The translations under genes and the position numbers were made by a program. A stretch of DNA of 64,000 bases from Candidatus Avimonas narfae (GTDB lineage: Bacteria > Bacillota > Clostridia > Oscillospirales > Acutalibacteraceae), in NCBI GenBank assembly GCA_904395335.1, contig CAJFNR010000067.1, positions 1-64,000 on the forward strand, written 5' to 3'. The notes beneath the pieces are model-generated. The model was not told the DNA's origin and searched no databases. It saw only the letters and a list, made by a program, of their open reading frames with translations. Every line of letters begins with the position of its first letter. Position 1 is the stretch's first letter. Positions 26,231-60,558 of this stretch are shown piece by piece.

Positions 26231-26461
26231 TGGTATACTGGCCCAGGGCCTCTATGCTTGATAGCAAACAATGTTGGATGTCCCTGGGCCTAGAGAAATT
26301 GTCTGTCGGCCGGAACGGCCTCCTCCCGCTTTGCAGCACCGCCAATTCTCCCTCTACGCCTATGGTATAATAAAGGTCGGGAGAAATGCGAGAGCATTTC
26401 TCGGGAACGCCGCCGATAGACGTTAGATCAAAACCGCATGGGGCGGCGTTCATGGTATAAT
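26231..26461 (+). repeat. TGGTATAAT-bounded intergenic repeat, copy 2
   Basis: Unit A runs from TGGTATACT (26231) to TGGTATAAT (26363), and unit B from there to TGGTATAAT (26453), with lengths 132 and 90. Unit A has the hairpin GGCCG-GAA-CGGCC and the CCCAGGG/CCCTGGG inverted repeat. Unit B has GAGAAATGC-N4-GCATTTCTC and the arms AACGCCGCC/GGCGGCGTT. The array is oriented toward the response regulator gene. Confidence 0.85.
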
Positions 26462-26811
26462 GAATTATGGATAGAGATGCAACTTCAAAAGCCTTTCCCT
26501 AGAGGTATGCTTCCCCCTTATGGGGAAGAGGACCGCCGTCAGCTGGTAGCTGAGGTGGGAAGTTACGATCATACAGCCATTGAGATTGAGAAACAGCTTT
26601 TTACACCTTATCAATCTCGCCGAGCGCTGAATCCGCTCCGCTCACCACCTGCCCGAAAGACAGGGACAGGTACAAAATTACGATTCGATGACTGTTGGGA
26701 TAGGAAGGCTCCGGCGCCTACCCCAGAAAGCATTTCCCCATTTTTCGCAGATATCTGCATACCTATTCCCTGCTGAGAAAAGGCCGGGTATGTCAAGGAG
26801 GAAATTCGCTC
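26462..26811 (+). other. Leader region of the response regulator, no gene seen
   Basis: This 350-base stretch continues the non-coding region from the ComEA gene. It contains the hairpin CTTCCCC-CTTAT-GGGGAAG (around 26509-26527) but no convincing coding sequence. AAGGAGG just before 26812 is the ribosome binding site of the response regulator. No clear promoter could be placed. Confidence 0.5.
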
Positions 26812-27495
26812 ATGAGCCCTATTCGTTTATTGCTGGTGGAGGACGATGAAGCCATTGCGGCCGGTCTGGAATATTCGCTGGAACAGGAAGGCTTTTCCGT
26901 CACCCGCCAGGCCCGTGTGGATGACGCCCTGTCCGTTTTACACAGCGAAAGCTTTGATCTGGCGCTGCTGGATCTGTCCCTGCCGGACGGCAGCGGATAC
27001 GATATCTGCCACTATATCAAAAAGGAACGGGATATGCCGGTGGTATTCTTGACCGCCAGGGATGACGAAGGAAACGTGGTCATGGGGCTGGACATGGGAG
27101 CCGACGATTACATTGTCAAGCCGTTCCGGCTGCGGGAGCTGATCTCCCGACTGAGAACCGTTTTGAGGCGTGCCCGCCGGGACAGCCCGGAAAATGGCCT
27201 GCATCGATATGGGGACGTATGCGTGGATACCCATCAGGGAAAGGTTTTCAAGGGCGGACGGGACGTGTTCCTGACCGCTTTGGAATACCGGCTGCTGCTG
27301 ATCCTGATTCAGCATGAGGGACAGGTGCTAACCCGCAGTCAGTTGCTGGAGCGTATCTGGGACATATCCGGGGATTTTGTCAACGACAATACCCTGACGG
27401 TATATATCAAACGTCTGCGGGAAAAAATTGAGGACGATCCCCGGGAGCCCGTTATTGTTCAGACAGTGCGGGGACAGGGCTACCGTATCGGCTAA
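26812..27495 (+). CDS. OmpR/PhoB family response regulator
   Basis: A 227-residue two-component regulator. The receiver domain has the acidic pair EDDE, the phosphorylation site Asp54 in ALLDLSLPDG, the Thr in FLTARDD and the Lys in IVKPF. The winged-helix domain ends in VNDNTLTVYIKRLREKIE and VRGQGYRIG. It is paired with the kinase 24 bases downstream and, by position, probably drives the ABC transporter behind the kinase through the GTCACC boxes at 28617-28657. Confidence 0.97.
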   Translation: MSPIRLLLVEDDEAIAAGLEYSLEQEGFSVTRQARVDDALSVLHSESFDLALLDLSLPDGSGYDICHYIKKERDMPVVFLTARDDEGNVVMGLDMGADDYIVKPFRLRELISRLRTVLRRARRDSPENGLHRYGDVCVDTHQGKVFKGGRDVFLTALEYRLLLILIQHEGQVLTRSQLLERIWDISGDFVNDNTLTVYIKRLREKIEDDPREPVIVQTVRGQGYRIG

Positions 27496-43122: not shown

Positions 43123-44163
43123 TCAGCGCGCTGTGAACTGCGACAGCGCCTTGAGGTTGCCGCTGTTGAGCGTGCGGATATCCTTGATGCCGTATTTCAT
43201 CATCGCCAGCCGGGTCAGTCCCAGGCCAAAGGCAAAGCCGGTGTATTTCTCCGGGTCGATCCCGCCAGCCGTCAGCACATTGGGATGGATCATGCCGCAA
43301 GGACACAGCTCCAGCCAGCCGGACTGCTTGCAGGTGGGGCACCCGTCTCCACCGCAGATCAGGCAGCTGATATCCAGCTCAAAGCCCGGCTCCACGAAGG
43401 GGAAAAAGCCCGGACGCAGCCGCACCTTAACCTCCCGATGGAACACCTCGGACAGCATGGTTTTCATGAAATAGATGAGATTAGAGATGGAAATATCCGT
43501 ATCGATCATGATGCCTTCCATCTGAAAGAAGGTGTTTTCATGGCTGGCATCTGTAGCCTCGTTGCGGAAGCAGCGGCCGGGAAAAATCGCCCGCAGCGGC
43601 GCGCCGTATTTGCGCATGATAGCGTTCTGCGCCGCAGAGGTGTGGGACTTGAGCAGCTGGCCGTTGTCCAGATAATAGGTATCCTGCATATCCCGGGCGG
43701 GATGATGCTTCGGGATATTCAGCGATTCAAAATTCTTGTATTCGTCCACCACCTCGAGGTAGTCCTCGATGGTAAAGCCCATGCTGGCAAAGATCTCCTC
43801 CACCTCGCGCTGCACCAGGGTAATGGGGTGCAGGGAACCCTGCTCCGCCTCCGCCGGGCGAGTAAAATCGTAAGCCTCCGCCTCGTTTACCAGACGCTCT
43901 TCCTCAGCCTGGCGGCATTTTTCCGCCCCGGCCGCCAGTTTCTCCTCCACCTCGGCGCGCAGGGTGTTGATGAGCTGCCCCGCTTCCTTTTTCTGCGAGG
44001 GTTCCACGTTTTTCAGCTCCTTGAACAGCTCGGTAACCCGGCCCTTTTTGCCGAGATAGGCCACCTTCAGCTGTTCGTAATCCGCCGAAGAGGCGGCGTT
44101 GGCCAGATCCCGGTCAAAATCCTGCCGGATGCTCTCCAATGTCCTCTCCACTCTTCTCCTCAT
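43123..44163 (-). CDS. pheS: Phenylalanyl-tRNA synthetase alpha subunit
   Basis: The catalytic class II subunit. The protein has an N-terminal coiled coil, AYLGKKGRVTELF, motif 2 in GRCFRNEATDASHENTFFQ, the Phe-pocket GFELDISCLICGG and motif 3 GFAFGLGLTRLAMMKYGI. A CXXC pair (CLICGGDGCPTC) is typical of clostridial PheS. The start is uncertain: ATG at 44163 (346 residues) has no well-spaced site, TTG at 44172 or 44190 and GTG at 44151 are possible. No T-box leader was found upstream. Confidence 0.95.
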   Translation of the reverse strand: MRRRVERTLESIRQDFDRDLANAASSADYEQLKVAYLGKKGRVTELFKELKNVEPSQKKEAGQLINTLRAEVEEKLAAGAEKCRQAEEERLVNEAEAYDFTRPAEAEQGSLHPITLVQREVEEIFASMGFTIEDYLEVVDEYKNFESLNIPKHHPARDMQDTYYLDNGQLLKSHTSAAQNAIMRKYGAPLRAIFPGRCFRNEATDASHENTFFQMEGIMIDTDISISNLIYFMKTMLSEVFHREVKVRLRPGFFPFVEPGFELDISCLICGGDGCPTCKQSGWLELCPCGMIHPNVLTAGGIDPEKYTGFAFGLGLTRLAMMKYGIKDIRTLNSGNLKALSQFTAR

Positions 44164-44332
44164 CCTTTCCAAACAGCCTCTCTTTTTCAAAAAAGCAGAT
44201 CAAGGCTTTGGTTTTCTTTTTAAAATAAATAAAATATATATCCAATATCCACGCTCGGGGGGCCGTCCCAAAGAGAGATGGCACTAAGCTGAGACCGGCA
44301 GTGACGACTCATGAGGTGAATAAAGGGGCTTT

Positions 44333-44552
44333 CCCATACCAGCAGTAATTTTATCGTAGCTTTCCATCTCATCCGTCCCACTTTGTGGGACACGCTGCTT
44401 TTCGGCAGCGTTCCCGAGAAATGCTACCGCATTTCTCCCGACCTTTATTGTACCATAAGCGTAGAGGGAACCGGCCCGCAGGGACGGCTTCAGGCACAGG
44501 AGCTCCCCTATCGTTTGCCATCAGGCATAGAGATCCGGGGTCCATTATACCG
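44333..44552 (-). repeat. TGGTATAAT-bounded intergenic repeat, copy 4
   Basis: On the minus strand CGGTATAAT (44552) opens unit A, TGGTACAAT (44455) opens unit B, and TGGTATGGG (44341) closes it. Unit B has GAGAAATGC-GGTA-GCATTTCTC and ACGCTGC-CGAAA-AGCAGCGT, then an extra GTCCCAC/GTGGGAC hairpin. It lies between pheS and proS and points toward pheS. Confidence 0.8.
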
Positions 44553-58939: not shown

Positions 58940-59252
58940 TGGTATAATGTGCCCATGGCCACTATGTGATGGACAAGCCTTGTGGGATGCCCCTGGGGCC
59001 TGGAGAAATCGGCTGTCGGTAGGCCCCCCGCCCCTGCATGGCACTACCTTGTCTCCCTCTACGCCTATGGTATTAATGTGCCCAGCGTCTCTACGTCTGA
59101 TGGCAAACAATGCGGGAATCCCCTGGGCCTGGGACCGTCCCTTTGGGCTGGTTCCCTCCTACCATTTTGGTATAAAATGCGTCAGCATTTCTCGGGTATG
59201 CTGACGTTAAACATAGACTAAGAGCCGCATGGGGCAGCGTTCATGGTATACT
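58940..59252 (+). repeat. TGGTATAAT-bounded intergenic repeat, copy 3 (three units)
   Basis: Boundaries TGGTATAAT (58940), TGGTATTAAT (59068), TGGTATAAA (59168) and TGGTATACT (59244) define units of 128, 100 and 76 bp: A, A, B. The second A matches the copy at 44455-44552, and the B ends in CGCATGGGGCAGCGTTCATGG like copy 2. The array points toward the LCP gene. Confidence 0.85.
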
Positions 59253-59424: not shown

Positions 59425-60558
59425 ATGAGCGGAAAACACACCAAAGGAAAAAACGACAATAAGGTTGTCGTGTCCCCCGAGGATACGGCAACACCTCATT
59501 CCAAACGAAAAAAGAAAAAGAAACTGACCAAAGGACAGATTATCAAACGGGTAATGATCGGCGTCATTGTCTGCCTCTTTTTGGTGGCCGGCGGTATCTT
59601 TACCTATATCGCCTATCTGCTCAACAGTATGGATGTCGTAGATATACCGAAAGACGATACTCAAATCAACATCAGTGACCAGTATCAGGATAAAAAATAT
59701 GATGGTATCCGCAACATCGCCGTATTTGGTGTGGATCGACGCGGCGGCAATGCCAATACCCGTTCCGACGTCATTATAATTTTAACCCTGGACAACCAGC
59801 ATAAAAAAATCAAGGCTACCTCCCTATTGCGGGACAGTTATGTATCCGTGGAAGGATACGGAAAGACAAAATTAACACACGCCTATGCCTATGGCGGTCC
59901 GGAGTTGGCCATCAAGACCATCAATTCCAATTTCAATATGAATATACGGGATTTCGTCACTGTGGATTTTGACTCTATGGCCAAAATCGTCGACGCGGTA
60001 GGCGGTGTGGATATCGAAGTGACGCAAGGCGAACTGGAAAGCCTAAACAAATGCATCGACGAATATGCCGATGCTTACGATATTGAAGAGCGAACCTACG
60101 TCACCTCCGCTGGTATGCAACATCTCAACGGCATGCAGGCATGCGGATATGCCCGTGTGCGGTATGACCATAACAACGGAGATGACCGGCGCCGCACGGA
60201 TCGGCAGCGTCGTGTTATGGAGGAAGTCTTCAACAAGGCGTTGACTATGGATCCCGCCGGATATCTTTCGCTGGCGCAGACATTGCTCCCCCTAGTGGAA
60301 ACCTCTTTCTCCGCCGGAGATCTGATCGACCTGGTTGGTGAAGCCACCGATATTCTCACCAACGACGGAGCGGAATTTGAACAGGCGCGTTTCCCCATGG
60401 ATGTCGATGCTTCTTTCCCGAGGATTGACGGAATGGAAGTGGTAGATTTTGATCATGAAGTAACCAACGAAAAGCTGTACAACTTCATTTTCGAAGACAT
60501 CGATCCTTCCGCTACCACCACCGGCAACACTTCCACCACCTCAAAAAACAACAACTAA
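59425..60558 (+). CDS. LytR-CpsA-Psr (LCP) family wall-polymer ligase
   Basis: LCP enzymes attach teichoic-acid-like or capsular polymers to peptidoglycan. The 377-residue protein has a basic cytoplasmic N-terminus, one membrane helix (about 43-67) and the LCP domain with FGVDRRGG, TRSDVIIILTLD, TSLLRDSYV, HAYAYGGPELAIKTI, and YARVRYDHNNGDDRRRTDRQ, which holds the pyrophosphate-binding Arg residues. The Thr/Asn tail is low in complexity. It may attach the glycan made by the operon at 5936-10769, but they are far apart and this is an inference. Confidence 0.95.
   Translation: MSGKHTKGKNDNKVVVSPEDTATPHSKRKKKKKLTKGQIIKRVMIGVIVCLFLVAGGIFTYIAYLLNSMDVVDIPKDDTQINISDQYQDKKYDGIRNIAVFGVDRRGGNANTRSDVIIILTLDNQHKKIKATSLLRDSYVSVEGYGKTKLTHAYAYGGPELAIKTINSNFNMNIRDFVTVDFDSMAKIVDAVGGVDIEVTQGELESLNKCIDEYADAYDIEERTYVTSAGMQHLNGMQACGYARVRYDHNNGDDRRRTDRQRRVMEEVFNKALTMDPAGYLSLAQTLLPLVETSFSAGDLIDLVGEATDILTNDGAEFEQARFPMDVDASFPRIDGMEVVDFDHEVTNEKLYNFIFEDIDPSATTTGNTSTTSKNNN

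Follow-up and report, generated by a model that had tools for sequence, protein, structure and literature searches.

The window, by which we mean the whole stretch of 64,000 nucleotides analysed, contains arrays of folded repeats that sit before three genes: a response regulator gene, pheS, and a LytR-type gene. The parts of these arrays, together with a unit at the contig end, are as follows.

26231–26239, + strand: first delimiter TGGTATACT (extended −10), start of the array
26240–26362, + strand: unit A in its long form, with an A5 stem-hairpin module and an AL branched-hairpin module (predicted fold)
26308–26320, + strand: AL hairpin GGCCG-GAA-CGGCC, whose middle pair is TA or CG among copies
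26363–26461, + strand: unit B, whole
26363–26371, + strand: delimiter TGGTATAAT at the start of unit B
26381–26402, + strand: unit B hairpin 1, 9 bp with the 4-nt loop GAGA; arms GAGAAATGC (26381–26389) and GCATTTCTC (26394–26402)
26405–26451, + strand: unit B stem 2, 10 bp with a 27-nt loop; arms GAACGCCGCC (26405–26414) and GGCGGCGTTC (26442–26451)
26453–26461, + strand: 3′ delimiter TGGTATAAT of unit B, interpreted as the element's own new −10
26489–26565, + strand: type C repeat after the array (separate palindromic family)
26812–27495, + strand: OmpR-type response regulator gene, downstream of the array and co-directional with it
13–141, − strand: unit A (A5-AL) at the contig end, with GGTCG-GAA-CGACC at 64–76
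44380–44551, − strand: array A5-AS plus a truncated chimeric B, upstream of pheS (43123–44190, −)
58940–59252, + strand: array A5-AL-A5-AS-B with a damaged B, upstream of the LytR-type gene (59425–60558, +)

At the contig end, bases 1–21 are the start of another A unit. A first-pass annotation of this DNA had placed unit B at 26363–26461 and its stem 2 at 26405–26451, and these positions and the arms given for them are correct. Both forms that it reported for the unit A hairpin are also present, GGTCG-GAA-CGACC at 64–76 (−) and GGCCG-GAA-CGGCC at 26308–26320 (+). Two further statements held in part. The arms described as having changed together in a copy at 44333–44455 do pair, but this copy is a truncated B unit that is without most of the stem-2 loop and is fused to a type C-like repeat. 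The stem of hairpin 1 was described as keeping both arms while its loop varies between GAGA and GGTA; both loops exist, the latter in the 44-kb copy, but in the copy at 59155–59252 the 5′ arm of hairpin 1 is truncated and stem 2 is broken in part. The latter copy is damaged, so pairing is not kept in every copy. These examples are real, but alone they are weak evidence.

The host is a gut-type bacterium and, to judge from its SpoIVA relatives, one of the Oscillospiraceae-type Clostridia. In its genome, unit B is matched at least 44 times. Copy counts refer to the loci fetched around matches, 246 kb in total, which contain 53 copies of B, 103 of A5, 49 of AL, 48 of AS, and 16 of C in many arrangements. 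In each of the 89 arrays all units have the same orientation, and no reversed unit was found. The units are about 90–140 nt long and are stacked strictly head to tail, with TGGTATAAT, an extended −10 promoter element, at the joints. The arrays are composites of recurring sub-modules whose order and number vary, in the manner of BOX-type repeats. The ends of unit B are direct, not inverted; specifically, it starts TGGTATAATAAAGG and finishes GCGTTCATGGTATAAT. Where an array consists of a single unit, its left −10 usually differs from its right −10, and inspection by eye revealed no further duplication. Unit B is predicted to fold into two hairpins and unit A into a stem and a branched hairpin. 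Compared with shuffled sequences, unit B folds well (z = −4.2; −5.2 and −3.8 for the units of two same-genus genomes, G002 and G001, described below), whereas unit A folds barely better (z = −1.4). Intrinsic terminators were ruled out from reading the units, whose hairpins have no following U-run. No unit matched Rfam 15 above the gathering score, and the sole match in the window is a tRNA.

The type C repeat is imperfectly palindromic (CTTCCCC...GGATGAGGTGG) and is often found directly 3′ of arrays, but also by itself (examples are window 26489–26565, L030, L036, L037, L041, and L058); it looks like a separate repeat family. Contigs of genome G000 that end within units include C9, C13, C14, C15, C16, C38, and C39, and further C55, C60, C61, C65, C68, and C72. 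With so many contigs ending inside units, the assembly was probably broken at the repeats, and more copies are likely to exist than were counted.

The head-to-tail arrays with a common delimiter, as well as chimeric units (for example 44380–44457, and B/C hybrids), would fit spread without any transposition, through recombination between shared −10 boxes and tandem duplication. However, 9 bp of identity is little for homologous recombination to act on, and such spread must also explain how new sites were reached at dozens of separate loci whose flanks are unrelated. We consider spread of this kind quite unlikely.

The first-pass annotation had further claimed that the arms of the hairpins change together. 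Within the genome this was evaluated on helices fixed beforehand, with our own script in the manner of R-scape, whose null places as many changes as were observed on the tree of the copies themselves. Against this tree-based null, AL pair T19–A27 (TA 18, CG 15) gives p = 0.001, A5 pair T27–A34 gives p = 0.0015, and B stem-2 pair T47–A81 (TA 32, CG 6, CA 3) gives p = 0.011. When all pre-specified helices are pooled, the observed signal is reached by 0 of 2000 simulations. An unguided all-against-all pair test on the single-genome alignments, however, gave no significant pair (best E = 0.95), because there is too little divergence, and an RNAalifold consensus of these alignments carried no information. 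Thus, the covariation signal from the single genome is modest.

Paired changes may also arise without selection on pairing. Template switching is a known behaviour of quasi-palindromes, and during replication it could copy changes from one arm to the other. Such coupling would act on any repeat of this kind whether transcribed or not, and would fit the composition of the single-step changes, among which those to G-U and those to A-C number 76 and 67 events, respectively (p = 0.50); as a test for RNA, this asymmetry gave no signal. On the other hand, many copies carry single-sided changes that have been left uncorrected, and the geometry and flanking layout are kept between species (see below), which arm copying alone need not preserve. 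Mutational coupling is therefore a quite unlikely source of the paired changes.

Unit-B DNA is absent from 59 relatives, two congeners included, and the exact unit-B motif has no match in the GTDB genome collection searched. The copies are 82–100% identical to the query and yet absent from these 59 relatives, indicating a recent spread. A phage origin was dropped, as an exact search of viral contigs with two motifs returned no match. A repeat search in stretches of the two same-genus genomes, covering about 39% of G002 and about 12% of G001, revealed high-copy units that have different letters and the layout of unit B. The geometry common to all three genomes is a 9-bp hairpin, a short linker, and a 10-bp stem. 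Specifically, the G002 unit reads GAAGAATnn/nnATTCTTC, then CACCGGTTCC...GGAACCGGTG, then TATGGTATAAT, and the G001 unit reads GAAAATGCC/GGCATTTTC, then GACCACGGCC...GGCCGTGGTT. The B profile of the own genome matches the G001 units with a best E of 1.5e-5, so the G001 units are relatives.

In an alignment of 13 copies from the own genome with 6 from G001, 97.5% of cells are paired, and both sides have changed in 7 of the 19 pairs. The covariation score is 0.379, compared with 0.131 after shuffling, and is reached by 0 of 500 shuffles; when the arms are slid by one to three columns, it is at most 0.086. In the pair flagged by the first-pass annotation, UA, CG, GC, and AU are all present. For the three species together, 94.7% of cells are paired against 63.7 ± 5.0% in the null (0 of 2000), a figure that includes 16 G002 units hand-picked in register from profile hits and a scan, which favours pairing somewhat. 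The arms in this comparison were matched by position because MAFFT mis-set hairpin 1 by one base. A covariance model built from the own and G001 copies alone recovers the G002 units without hand-picking, with E from about 1e-8 to 6e-4. The between-species covariation signal is decisive. Since the sister units have different letters and a common fold, the fold itself is preserved. The earlier claims that the arms change together and that pairing is maintained, not just sequence, are thus borne out, the latter strongly so once the sister species are included; covariation among many copies is significant in the guided, pooled, and cross-species tests, but not in the unguided one.

A search of 250 family genomes with the model gave hits in 11 genomes from 7 genera, strong mainly within the genus, and some of the hits outside the genus are doubtful. 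By eye, the hit at L293 lies inside a coding gene, ribosomal protein methyltransferase-like, and was rejected as a false positive. In G157, a two-hairpin unit is found within a larger near-identical repeat at six places (L294, L301, L305–L308), and the larger repeat has inverted flanks CGAACCC / GGGTTCG. In G192 (L300, L311), the unit lies between inverted repeats like CAGGTCGCTTCCA / TGGAAGCGACCTG. In G273 (L292), the hit lies between 21-nt direct repeats GTCAGATGACATTTTTTTAAT, perhaps a duplication that arose on insertion.

The arrays are placed in the sense direction, after a native promoter and before the gene that it serves; genes were called with a simple codon-usage caller. Of the 63 callable arrays, 58 are followed by a co-directional gene, with a median gap of 194 nt, whereas only 34 of the 63 are preceded by one (Fisher p = 2e-6). 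The first delimiter is preceded at 16–18 nt by a TTGACA-like −35 with 3.11 of 6 matches, compared with 2.31 of 6 at control spacings (Wilcoxon p = 2e-5); internal delimiters are without a −35 (1.57 matches). At 5 of about 13 comparable sites in sister species, the left-most delimiter aligns with the orthologue's own TATAMT −10 (L063/L122, L034/L144, L083/L158, L009/L149, and L082/L140), and the hexamer TATACT is identical in four of the five. The remaining eight or so comparable sites are too diverged, different, or rearranged for clean alignment. On the evidence of these alignments, the left-most −10 is the host's own at the five orthologous sites. Survivorship could also have enriched harmless positions.

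Sense orientation between a promoter and a start codon would be expected if the repeats were domesticated 5′-leader elements with hairpins in the RNA that make the transcript more stable or control the gene that follows. The position of unit B hairpin 1, which begins about 9 nt past the −10 and thus near the expected transcript start, agrees with this, as does the folding of unit B and its sister units beyond their shuffles. However, the A5 stem begins 2 nt past the −10 and so before the point where the transcript is expected to start, unit A is only slightly above its shuffles, G-U intermediates are not above A-C, and the repeat families are species-specific. Moreover, the sense bias is weaker for the G002 copies (8 same versus 4 opposite) and absent for the G001 copies (4 same versus 3 opposite), although the G001 fold covaries. 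A leader-RNA function is thus a rather unlikely reason for the fold. Because the bias is weak in G002 and absent in G001, nesting at the −10 does not extend to the family as a whole. Because there is no G-U excess and the G001 stems covary without leader bias, the pairing constraint seems to belong to the element and not to a leader-RNA function.

We favour the reading, with a probability of about 0.5, that the units are mobile repeats, non-autonomous and constrained in structure, which have inserted directly 3′ of −10 boxes of the host. The left −10 would belong to the host and the right −10 to the element, which would insert immediately 3′ of a −10-like site and bring in a new TGGTATAAT with its own 3′ end. 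Through this new TGGTATAAT, the downstream gene would still have a −10 and a fresh landing site would arise, leading to head-to-tail growth. Insertion 3′ of a −10 by an element with a −10-like 3′ end would account for the constant orientation and the head-to-tail arrays, and also for the survival of host genes and the lack of a visible target duplication. The hairpins would be conserved through a mobility protein for which the folded single strand is the recognition signal; −10-like sites would serve as the left and right joining sites, following the logic of IS200/IS605-type elements. Once inserted, the units are probably transcribed as leader RNA; we infer that pairing serves single-strand mobility rather than the leader RNA. 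A fold preserved across species is as expected of a small mobile element using promoters as landing sites.

No mobilising gene for the units was identified in the genome. The one intact Y1 transposase gene (161 aa; L171:1453–1938, −; C49:4271–4627) is of a typical IS200-like kind and has its own end hairpins, and its flanks bear hairpins other than those of the units and no unit. Y1 transposase remnants are found at C4:141881 and C4:156487. The genome's Y1 transposase was rejected as the mobiliser, as its ends differ from the unit ends and no units are nearby. A doubtful extension of the mobile-repeat reading is that single-strand elements use the host −10, possibly opened by RNA polymerase, as both landing site and right end, which would give sense-only integration, a new −10 for the gene, and nested arrays without silencing.

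Small folded repeats are common in bacteria, and the purpose of the fold and the choice of site are mostly unknown. Here the fold is evident from covariation between species, and the choice of site is precise, namely the −10 box of working promoters. If the mobile-repeat model is true, the element would be a parasite whose far end gives a promoter element back to the host and so spares it, and transcript leaders would have been rewired at dozens of genes of one species, pheS and the response regulator gene included.

The BOX repeats of Streptococcus pneumoniae (boxA-boxB-boxC) are intergenic composites built from modules that vary in number; stem-loops are predicted for them, their mobility is uncertain, and they are found more often than expected between convergent genes (PMC3049150). 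The present arrays likewise have modularity, stem-loops, and a variable number of modules; however, nearly all of them precede a gene that runs in the same direction, their first delimiter is a native −10, and an extended −10 joins their units. In Neisseria, Correia elements (CREE/NEMIS) are small folding repeats that carry promoter sequences and are often upstream of genes, one of them being described directly downstream of the mtrCDE promoter (PMC10969869, PMC2649163), and they have an inverted repeat (PMC2649163). Promoter carriage, folding, and position upstream of genes are shared with the present units, which differ in their direct ends, single direction, and head-to-tail stacking. The present units also differ from classical MITEs, derived from DDE transposases, in being without terminal inverted repeats.

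REP/RAYT and IS200/IS605 elements have conserved hairpins, a fixed strand orientation, no obvious target duplication, and a short left target. The present units resemble IS200/IS605 in their conserved hairpins, in being co-oriented in arrays, and in having, as left target, a first −10 that is ancestral at five sites, but a Y1 transposase with matching ends was not found in the genome. REP sequences are palindromes of 20–40 bp with a GTAG or CGTC tag (PMC3733652); REP/BIME with TnpA-REP (RAYT) and the IS200/IS605-type single-strand elements are treated in PMC8266576 and PMC5934647. In contrast to REP/RAYT, the present units are about 90–140 nt long, their joint is a −10 box, and no unit is near the Y1 genes. 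In the open-access literature, the nearest published kinds are BOX, Correia, and REP, from which the arrays differ in site choice, orientation rule, and the −10 joint. On these differences, together with the Rfam result, we regard the arrays as a new variant of small interspersed folded repeats.
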